Source: Brevundimonas sp.
GTDB taxonomy: Bacteria > Pseudomonadota > Alphaproteobacteria > Caulobacterales > Caulobacteraceae
Direction: 5' to 3'
Length of the DNA: 35,466 bases
Assembly: GCA_022712235.1 (NCBI GenBank)
Contig: JALAGW010000292.1
Coordinates: forward strand, 1 to 35,466
The position numbers were made by a program, and so were the translations under genes. Numbering within the stretch: the stretch's first letter is position 1; every line of letters begins with the position of its first letter. The notes under the pieces were generated by a model. It did no database searches and was not told where the DNA came from. It saw only the letters and a program-made list of their open reading frames with translations. Below, in pieces: positions 12,154 to 29,459 of the stretch.

Positions 12154-12174
12154 GTGTTCAAGCGGCAAGAAATC

Positions 12175-12208
12175 AGGCCCCGAGGAGCAATCCTCGGGGC
12201 CTTTTTTC
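12175..12208. terminator. Intrinsic terminator between convergent bamE and hppA
   Basis: aggccccgagga-gcaa-tcctcggggcct followed by ttttt. Confidence 0.9.
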
Positions 12209-16979: not shown

Positions 16980-18112
16980 GATTGGTCTTCTCCGTCCATA
17001 TCGCGCCAGCCCACGATGCGCAGGCCGTAGCCTTCCAGCGCCGTCGGATTGGGCCGCGTCGAGCTCATCACGATCATGTCCTTGACGCCGAGGTCGAGCA
17101 GAATCTGCGCCCCGACGCCATAGGCTTTCAGCGAACGATCCACGGCGGCGGGCTTGTCGGCGCCGCCCAGGCGCTCGGCCAGCCCCTGCAGCGCGGGGTC
17201 GCGCAGGAAGACGACGACCCCCGGACCGTCATTGGCGGTCAGGGCCTGCATGGCCGTCGGAATATAGTCCTGACGCGCCTCGACATGGCCCAGCAGGTCG
17301 GCGGCGAAGTCGATCTGGTGCATCCGCACCACGGTCGGCCTGGTCGGATCGATGTCGCCGCGCACCAGGGCGATGTGTTCGGCGCCCTCGATGGTGTTGC
17401 GATAGAGGATCAGCTTGAACGGCCCGCCGTGGACGCTCTCGAACGGGGTCTCCAGCACGCGCTCGACGAAGCGCTCGGTGCGGCGGCGATAGGCGATCAG
17501 GTCGGCGATGGTGCCGATCTTCAGGCCGTGCAGTTGGGCGAAGGCGATCAGGTCGGGCTTCCGCGCCATCTCGCAGTCGTCCTTGATGATCTCGCAGATC
17601 ACGCCTGACGGGTTCAGGCCGGCCATGCGGCTGATGTCGACGGCGGCCTCGGTATGGCCGGCGCGGACCAGAACGCCGCCGTCGCGCGCAACCAGGGGGA
17701 AGATGTGGCCGGGCGAGACGATGTCGTCGACCCCGCGCGTCGGGTCGGTCGCGACCTGCACCGTGTGCGAACGGTCGGCGGCGGAAATGCCGGTCGTCAC
17801 GCCCTCCCTGGCCTCGATCGAGACGGTGAAGGCGGTCTTCATGCTCTCGCGATTGTCGGCGGCCATCGGCGGCAGACGCAGCTGACGGGCGCGGTCGCCG
17901 GTCACGGCCAGACAGACCAGGCCGCGGGCATAGCGGATCATGAAGTTGATCTGGTCCGGCGTGGCGAACTGGGCCGGAATGACGATGTCGCCCTCGTTCT
18001 CGCGATCCTCGGCGTCCACCAGGATATAGGGACGACCGTTGCGGGCGTCTTCGAGAATGTCCTCGATCGGGCTGATCGGGCTGTCGGTATTGTGGACGGC
18101 CAGTTTCATCAT
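16976..18112 (-). CDS. ribB: 3,4-dihydroxy-2-butanone 4-phosphate synthase fused to a degenerate GTP cyclohydrolase II-like domain (RibBX type)
   Basis: '[40 protein letters not shown]', '[15 protein letters not shown]', '[15 protein letters not shown]'. The C-terminal GCHII-like part lacks the Cys zinc ligands. ATGA overlap with ribE (ORF extends to 18211). Confidence 0.94.
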
Positions 18113-18699
18113 GCGGTCTCCTGCCACCGCGCGAGGTAGCGCGCCAGCATGTCGATCTCCAGGTTGACCTTGTCGCCGACCTTCAGGCCGCCGAGCGTGG
18201 TCGCATCCCACGTGTGCGGAATGATGTTCACGTCAAAGCGGCGCTCATGCACCCCATTCACGGTCAGGGAAACCCCATCGACGGTGATTGAGCCCTTCGG
18301 CGCGATAAATCGGTGCAAAGGCGCTGGCACCTCGATCACGATGCGGTGCGATCCGCCTTCAGGGGTGATGGAGACGACCTCGCCCAGGCCGTCGACGTGG
18401 CCCGAGACGATATGGCCGCCCAGTTCGTCGCCCAGCCTGGCCGCGCGCTCCAGATTGACGCGGGTGTTCTCGGCCCAGTCGCCCAGCTTCGTCTTCGACA
18501 GGGTCTCGCCCGAGACCTCGACGGCGAACCAGCCCTCGCCCTTTTCCGTGACCGTCAGGCAGCAGCCCGCGTGGCTGATGGAGGCGCCGAGGTCGATGGT
18601 CGCCGTGTCCCACACGGTTTCGATCTCATAGCGACGGTCGCGGTTGGTTTGGCGGACGCTGCGGACGCGGCCGATGTCGGTGACGATGCCGGTGAACAT
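18109..18699 (-). CDS. ribE: Riboflavin synthase alpha subunit
   Basis: 'MFTGIVTDIGRVRSV', 'ISHAGCCLTVTEKGEGWFAVEVSGETLSKT', 'GGHIVSGHVDGLGEV', 'GSITVDGVSLTVNGV'. Confidence 0.98.
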   Translation of the reverse strand: MFTGIVTDIGRVRSVRQTNRDRRYEIETVWDTATIDLGASISHAGCCLTVTEKGEGWFAVEVSGETLSKTKLGDWAENTRVNLERAARLGDELGGHIVSGHVDGLGEVVSITPEGGSHRIVIEVPAPLHRFIAPKGSITVDGVSLTVNGVHERRFDVNIIPHTWDATTLGGLKVGDKVNLEIDMLARYLARWQETA

Positions 18700-18702
18700 G
18701 AA

Positions 18703-18762
18703 AGCTCCGGTCCCTTCGGACCCAAAAAACAGAGTCTAATTAGTCTAATTCGTCTGAAATCG
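18703..18762 (-). promoter_or_regulatory. Leader element shared with gor (see 29210..29268)
   Basis: Plus-strand gctccgg-tccctt-cggac-cc-aaaaaacagag-tctaattagtctaattcgtctgaaatcg lies in the 77-nt ribD-ribE gap; colinear with the gor leader. Confidence 0.6.
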
Positions 18763-18776
18763 CGCCTGAGGAGGCG

Positions 18777-19538
18777 TCAGGCGCGAACGTAGCGTTCCCA
18801 CAGGTCGTCTCCGACAGGCTCGACGCCCAGACGACGGAACTTGGGGGCGTCGGCCAGCTTTGCAAGCGCCACCGACGCCACGCAGGGCCCGCCCTCCCCG
18901 CCCAGCAGGAGCGGGGCGCGGAACCATTCGATAGCGGCCACCACGCCCGCCTGCAGAAAGGACGCGGCGACACGGCCCCCGCCCTCGATCAACAACGAGG
19001 TGACGCCGCGCGCGGTCAGGGCGTCGAGGACGGCGGCGATGGCGGGACGGCCGTCGTCTGCGGCAACCGTGAGGACTTCGGCGTGACCGATGGCGCGGGG
19101 CTGGGCTGTGGTGAGGATCAGGGTGCTGCCGGATGCGACCTTGGCCGTTGCGGGGGTCCGCAGACGACTGTCGAGGACGATCCTCAACGGATTCCTTCTC
19201 CCCTCGGGGGAGAAGGTGGGCGGCGAAGCCGCTCGGATGAGGGGGACGCCGGATGCGGACTGGACGTCTGACGATGAGCGCGCTGAAACCGCCCCCTCAT
19301 CCGTCATGCTCCGCACGACACCTTCTCCCCCCAGGGGAGAAGGGAAGAGGCGCACGGTCAGTTCGGGATCGTCGGCCAGCACGGTCTCGACCCCGACCAG
19401 GATGGCGTCATGGCTCGCGCGCAGGCGGTGCCCCTGCTGACGGGCTTCGGGTCCGGTGATCCACTGGCTTTCGCCCGTGGCTGTGGCGATGCGGCCGTCG
19501 AGCGACGTGGCCAGCTTCAGGGTGACGCGCGGGCGCAT
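18777..19538 (-). CDS. ribD: RibD reductase domain (5-amino-6-(5-phosphoribosylamino)uracil reductase) without N-terminal deaminase, with in-frame repeat insertion
   Basis: 'RPRVTLKLATSLDGRIATATGESQWITGPEARQQGHRLRASHDAILVGVETVLADDPELTVR' and 'LLIEGGGRVAASFLQAGVV' are RibD_C hallmarks. The start abuts the nrdR stop, leaving no room for a deaminase domain. Confidence 0.9.
   Translation of the reverse strand: MRPRVTLKLATSLDGRIATATGESQWITGPEARQQGHRLRASHDAILVGVETVLADDPELTVRLFPSPLGGEGVVRSMTDEGAVSARSSSDVQSASGVPLIRAASPPTFSPEGRRNPLRIVLDSRLRTPATAKVASGSTLILTTAQPRAIGHAEVLTVAADDGRPAIAAVLDALTARGVTSLLIEGGGRVAASFLQAGVVAAIEWFRAPLLLGGEGGPCVASVALAKLADAPKFRRLGVEPVGDDLWERYVRA
19194..19343. repeat. 150-nt palindromic repeat element (two 52-nt inverted arms) inside ribD
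   Basis: Left arm 19194-19245 CCTTCTCCCCTCGGGGGAGAAGGTGGGCGGCGAAGCCGCTCGGATGAGGGGG; reverse complement of right arm 19292-19343 CCTTCTCCCCTGGGGGGAGAAGGTGTCGTGCGGAGCATGACGGATGAGGGGG. Confidence 0.93.
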
Positions 19539-29209: not shown

Positions 29210-29268
29210 GGCTCCGGGATCGGACTCGAAAAAACAGAGCCCAATTCGTCTGAATAGTCTGCAATTCG
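29210..29268 (-). promoter_or_regulatory. Leader element shared with ribE (see 18703..18762)
   Basis: Plus-strand ggctccgg-gat-cggac-tcg-aaaaaacagag-cccaattcgtctgaatagtctgcaattcg immediately upstream of the gor ATG (29205). Confidence 0.6.
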
Positions 29269-29459
29269 TGCGGCCGAACCGCAGCGCTAACCCGACTTAG
29301 GCGCCGGGGCTCGAGGGGGCAAGGCGGAAGGACGGCATCCCGGAAAGGAGGTCGGAACGGCAGGCGGACACCCGGTCGCGCCGACGCCTGTCAACTCTTC
29401 TGGCGGACAGCGTTCGGTGATACCCTATCCAGCCGATATGTATGTCGTGAGGGCCGTTG

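Follow-up and report, generated by a model that had tools for sequence, protein, structure and literature searches.

Copies of one element precede ribE and gor

What do the leaders of ribE and gor share in this Brevundimonas genome, and at what level would a shared sequence act? Both genes lie in the window, by which we mean the whole 35,466-nucleotide stretch of DNA analyzed, and the first-pass annotation had described one colinear element common to their leaders. Both leaders read as quoted there. The pattern CTCTGTTTTTT, allowing at most one mismatch, has exactly two matches in the window, both in these leaders, where 0.06 would be expected, and none of 100 window shuffles reached two. The iteron-like units of that annotation were borne out, with the unit corrected to a 7-bp box, in its main form TTCAGAC, followed by a free dinucleotide that gives a 9-bp period. 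The extent was also corrected, since the element runs on 3' of the T run through an inverted box.

The layout is (TTCAGAC-NN)x3, TG, T5-6, N3-14, and the inverted box GTC(T/C)GA, with ATTAGAC, ATTGGAC, and ATTGCAC as variants of the direct box. The inverted box is present in many but not all copies, 3 to 14 bp past the T run, and frequently reads GTCTGAAATC, opposite GATTTCAGAC of the first unit. The core measures 37 bp, or about 57 bp including the inverted box, and the 37-bp consensus of the fuller copies in this genome is GATTTCAGACGATTCAGACGAATTGGACTCTGTTTTT. In the ribE, gor, and S46 peptidase leaders, the inverted box adjoins the Shine-Dalgarno (SD) sequence.

The ribE copy occupies positions 18761 to 18716 of the minus strand, the strand of all features given for both leaders. 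Its first box with a 5' extension (GATTTCAGAC; 18752 to 18761) was assigned from the leader sequence and the family consensus, and the leader sequence gives a second and a third box, both ATTAGAC, at 18743 to 18749 and 18734 to 18740. TG and T6 follow at 18724 to 18731, a segment also found by the motif search of the window, and then the inverted box GTCCGA at 18716 to 18721. This copy is divergent because its inverted box also serves a second, competing hairpin, GGTCC-GAAG-GGACC (GGTCCGAAGGGACC; 18709 to 18722), which abuts the SD (GGAG; 18705 to 18708) and is kept in loci L217 and L234. The riboflavin synthase gene ribE itself (NCBIfam TIGR00187/NF006767) spans 18109 to 18699. Upstream, the ribD open reading frame (18777 to 19538, minus strand) matches RibD (TIGR00227) in its C-terminal, reductase half only; this frame, whose start coincides with the nrdR stop, does not include the N-terminal deaminase part. 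A leader peptide was considered for the element, since the 9-bp period corresponds to three codons, but an in-frame TAA occurs in ribE and there is no common start codon before the core.

The gor copy runs from 29265 to 29219, and its first two boxes, TGCAGAC (29257 to 29263) and TTCAGAC (29248 to 29254), are plain in the leader sequence. The third unit reads ATTGGGC and, together with its dinucleotide (ATTGGGCTC; 29237 to 29245), is the 5' arm of a covarying hairpin. TG and T6 (29229 to 29236) lie inside the loop, and the inverted box GAGTCCGAT (29219 to 29227) is the 3' arm by ortholog alignment. The SD (GGAG; 29212 to 29215) and gor, encoding glutathione-disulfide reductase (NCBIfam TIGR01424; 27823 to 29205), follow. 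Inspection of the ortholog alignment by eye also revealed a -10-like sequence, GCGCCTAAGTC, 5' of the element at 29294 to 29304, which is retained among the gor orthologs having the element; a sigma-70 scan gave no match to it. If GCGCCTAAGTC is a promoter, the gor element would sit in the 5' untranslated region (UTR). Sequestration of the SD by CTCTG:CGGAG pairing is possible in this gor leader, but the dinucleotide differs in other lineages and the idea was rejected.

The element is dispersed in Brevundimonas and placed nonrandomly

A 23-bp pattern, AGACNAATTNGNCTCTGTTTTTT, searched with up to three mismatches, has eight copies in the same genome (2.80 Mb searched, 82% complete) and none with the reversed pattern. 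The pattern is present in 47 of 132 Brevundimonas genomes, at up to 24 copies each, and the control was 0 everywhere. Many of these genomes carry the element before or beside some ten to twenty unrelated genes. An exact 22-mer search of GTDB genomes returned 76 stretches, almost all of them Brevundimonas by title; the other titles were "Alpha proteobacterium L41A" and one metagenome-assembled genome titled Bordetella (JAFKFS). The latter has Brevundimonas-type elements and loci (L135, L149, L155, and L171), and its label is probably wrong or its bin mixed. With the fuller pattern that includes the inverted box, 2 of 22 genera among 300 family genomes matched, the second with one match. The plasmids and phages searched held no copies, and samples of two neighboring genera (200 and 133 kb) showed no 9-bp-period excess before T runs.

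Loci were also found through their proteins and are thus free of pattern-search bias. Among the close relatives examined, the leaders of gor and ribE have the element, as do those of some more distant genomes (gor in G058, G067, and G027; ribE in G058 and G011), and many distant genomes lack it. Upstream conservation at these orthologs, which the first-pass annotation had made a test of its claim, thus holds in part of the genus only. At orthologous loci, core identity is 0.88 to 1.00 in most groups, with two lower (0.82 and 0.71), and upstream flanks are at 0.31 to 0.90; the core values are inflated because the copies were found through 22 of 34 bases.

The copies are intergenic. Among 52 unrelated main-family copies, which include one of TTCGGAC type (L220), those in tandem gene pairs run along the genes 22 times and against them 4 times (p = 0.0005); 14 are flanked by divergent genes and 8 by convergent genes, the remainder not being classifiable. 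The next gene is codirectional at 36 of the 48 loci having both neighbors called, by a simple codon-usage finder that was trained on the window and may be wrong in single calls. The distance from the end of the element to the next start is 13 to 250 bp, with one exception. For convergent copies, the end falls -15 to 46 bp away from the stop codon of the opposing gene, and a long spacer precedes the element. The same annotation had held that random intergenic occurrence would mark a plain dispersed repeat; dispersal genome-wide was largely what we found, but placement is nonrandom in its orientation bias and strict core conservation.

Downstream genes include those for an S46 peptidase, a ybbN-like thioredoxin, a coenzyme A transferase, hemB, transaldolase (tal), a DPP4-like peptidase, rplK, TldD/PmbA, dnaE, a purB-like lyase, folE, ftsY, and murG. 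No common function, and none of the coherence of operator-type targets, was found among them. A plausible -10 lies upstream of the element in the gor, hemB, and S46 leaders; only some loci show such a promoter, and GCTANAWC has no overall enrichment upstream of copies. A general promoter immediately upstream of the element, although real-looking at some loci, was therefore rejected.

Some copies have company. At L015, L020, L079, and L184, another iterated element, which has TTGCAC boxes and a T run of its own, often lies just 5' of the TTCAGAC element, and at L037, L077, L185, L193, and L201 there is a conserved stem, ACCGTGCGATCC...ATCGCACGGT, upstream. Five convergent-gene copies (L006, L009, L047, L049, and L055) have about 100 bp more upstream sequence in common (AATCCC-GAAAA ... 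CATAAT/CATCAT) and are possibly small RNA genes.

In gor leaders, the third box and the inverted box form a covarying hairpin

In the leaders of 12 gor orthologs, the third box and its dinucleotide pair with the inverted box in a 9-bp hairpin directly 5' of the SD. Across the 12 orthologs, 93.3% of cells are paired and four of the nine pairs have changed on both sides; the arms ATTGGACTC/GAGTCCGAT versus TTCAGACCC/GGGTCTGAA are an example of such a swap. Slid registers reached at most 47% paired. The covariation, which includes G-U pairs, had a score reached by 4 of 500 shuffles, a count that overstates independence because the alignment rows are related.

At 29 unrelated loci, variable positions in the third-box register pair above permuted expectation (p = 0.010; Watson-Crick pairs, p = 0.005), and the first- and second-box registers do not (p = 0.74 and 0.56). 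Covariation was not significant in the AGAC-type subset alone (p = 0.12), nor was an extension of the stem into the flanks that seemed real by eye (p = 0.87 and 0.65). Minimum-energy folding was only mildly nonrandom, and the reverse strand was equally so. Pairing of the T-tract flanks with covariation, suggested earlier from two copies, is thus seen in gor orthologs and, less strongly, at unrelated loci. The convergent copies of this clade show that the hairpin is not obligatory: they have the direct boxes and the T run but no inverted box.

An RNA-level element is favored over other readings

The orientation bias and the covarying hairpin beside the SD together favor a cis element at the RNA level. 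Our leading reading, held with somewhat less than even confidence and from sequence comparison, is a Brevundimonas-restricted dispersed intergenic cis element that most likely acts in RNA. Where a copy lies just 5' of a gene, its third box would pair with the inverted box, and the resulting hairpin, U-rich in its loop, would adjoin the SD on the 5' side; the first two boxes would stay unpaired. We infer that a putative trans-acting factor, an RNA-binding protein or small RNA (sRNA), recognizes the iterated boxes and would set translation or decay of the downstream message. The targets of convergent-end copies would be short transcripts or 3' UTRs. Structured 5' leaders of the riboswitch-like or protein-bound kind resemble this arrangement in having a covarying hairpin by the SD, probably within the 5' UTR in gor, but the Brevundimonas hairpin is simple, its targets are unrelated, and it has no Rfam match.

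Alternatively, a DNA-binding protein could use the direct and inverted 7-bp boxes as operators or as architectural sites, and the T tract would supply a bend. We consider this unlikely, and a DNA-binding reader is kept in play because some copies, the convergent ones among them, lack the inverted box and because the unpaired boxes are strictly conserved. Box sequence is conserved between free NN spacers, core identity is 0.88 to 1.00 at most orthologous loci versus 0.3 to 0.9 in the flanks (partly through ascertainment), and some copies have a plausible gene promoter downstream of them. MetJ-type met boxes are tandem-box operators in which short boxes repeat at a fixed short period; the Brevundimonas element shares that trait but differs in its 9-bp period, T tract, unrelated targets, and inverted box at a variable distance. 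That variable distance, the orientation bias, the absence of shared function among targets, and the G-U pairs in the gor covariation all argue against a DNA site.

The scattered copies, the lineage-specific families, the many genomes in which ribD and ribE abut without the element, and the loci with two elements or families side by side would also fit a nonautonomous hairpin repeat, spread by mobility or conversion and with little or no regulatory role. This reading is improbable given the orientation bias, the vertical conservation at gor and ribE, and the absence of copies from the phages and plasmids searched, the last of which also led us to reject an origin from either. REP/BIME sequences mobilized by RAYT are likewise short intergenic hairpin repeats in lineage-specific families. 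The Brevundimonas element differs in its tandem boxes and orientation bias, and nearly all carriers have no RAYT: a RAYT-type Y1 transposase occurs in 4 of 132 genomes, one of them (G042) a clear carrier, and is absent from the genome of the window and from most carriers, so RAYT-associated REP was rejected. CcrM-associated intergenic repeats (CIR; Chen and Shapiro 2003, as given in PMC2229807) are about 110 bp long with two arms, a linker, and a conserved GANTC. They too are dispersed intergenic repeats with inverted repeats in Caulobacter relatives, and many Brevundimonas copies also hold GANTC. The element is nevertheless not a CIR, being a 37-bp core or about 57 bp with the inverted box, built of iterated 9-bp units, and lacking GANTC in 12 of 52 unrelated copies.

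A transcription attenuator or terminator, or the 3' end of a small-RNA family, is very unlikely. It would account for a T5-6 run at a fixed place, for the convergent copies, whose ends lie within -15 to 46 bp of the opposing stop after a long upstream spacer, and for the promoter-like -10 upstream of several copies. The T run, though, lies in the hairpin loop and not 3' of the stem, and a scan for intrinsic terminators (a GC-rich stem and then a U tract) found none in either leader. Ordinary terminators do exist in this genome, since window positions 12168 to 12207 hold a canonical one, CCCCGAGGA..TCCTCGGGG and then T6.

Control of ribE and gor by an FMN- or redox-responsive leader, the flavin link ventured in the first-pass annotation, has only the two gene names in the window in its favor and is largely refuted by the target list, in which other copies adjoin hemB, rplK, ybbN, tal, purB, folE, ftsY, murG, peptidases, and convergent ends. 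Rfam searches, with the FMN riboswitch RF00050 included, also speak against it; they gave two tRNAs only in the window at the gathering threshold and no match at E of ≤1 on ten element loci. A motif at two flavin-related genes can thus prove to be a genome-wide element. No paper on such an element in Brevundimonas turned up in the open-licence literature, and what looks like a control element had no description in the papers and databases searched. A single short element, if this is confirmed, would link expression across at least a dozen unrelated housekeeping genes of Brevundimonas.

Other Brevundimonas lineages have the same layout with different boxes

The same 9-bp-period layout occurs in other Brevundimonas genomes with the boxes TGTGCAC, TTCGGAC, and NTTGGAC, sometimes at the ribD-ribE junction. 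Across families the plan is two or three units of box and NN, TG, T5-6, a short loop, and the inverted box; box sequence changes, but the T run is kept, as is the inverted box in most cases. Many species have no gap between ribD and ribE; where one exists, it often has the layout in other sequence: TTCGGAC type in L220, TGTGCAC type in L230, and period-9 iterations in L219 and L235. The period-9 score is 14 to 15 of 20 in L219, L220, and L235, and at least 14 in 2 of 217 background upstream regions. L230 has two units only and scores 11, and L232, which has no T run, was left out of the scoring.

TGTGCAC-type elements are present in 23 genomes at up to nine copies each (control, 0), and the NTTGGAC type recurs in G043. 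The AGTGGCC type is a weak family, with one clean copy in G002 and nonzero control counts. An unbiased scan of G002 for iterations before T runs (threshold, 14 of 20) gave eight matches at period 9 and zero to three at other periods; some of the eight lie in coding sequence, and the rest belong to two types, TTCGGAC and AGTGGCC.

That boxes have changed concurrently between lineages suggests one of two histories: coevolution with a reader, or new dispersed families taking the place of the previous ones. A genus-wide system is conceivable, although we regard it as doubtful, in which a factor and its 9-bp-period boxes (TTCAGAC, TGTGCAC, TTCGGAC, NTTGGAC, and perhaps AGTGGCC) would have changed together several times, with boxes replaced at many loci per genome and the layout and some positions, such as the ribD-ribE junction, kept. 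If the element is confirmed, the one layout with different boxes would make coevolution of recognition sequence and reader directly testable within a single genus. The TTCGGAC-type elements of G002 at L269, L276, L277, and L282 are followed by a conserved tail resembling TTTATACCCGGGTAAAACCC.
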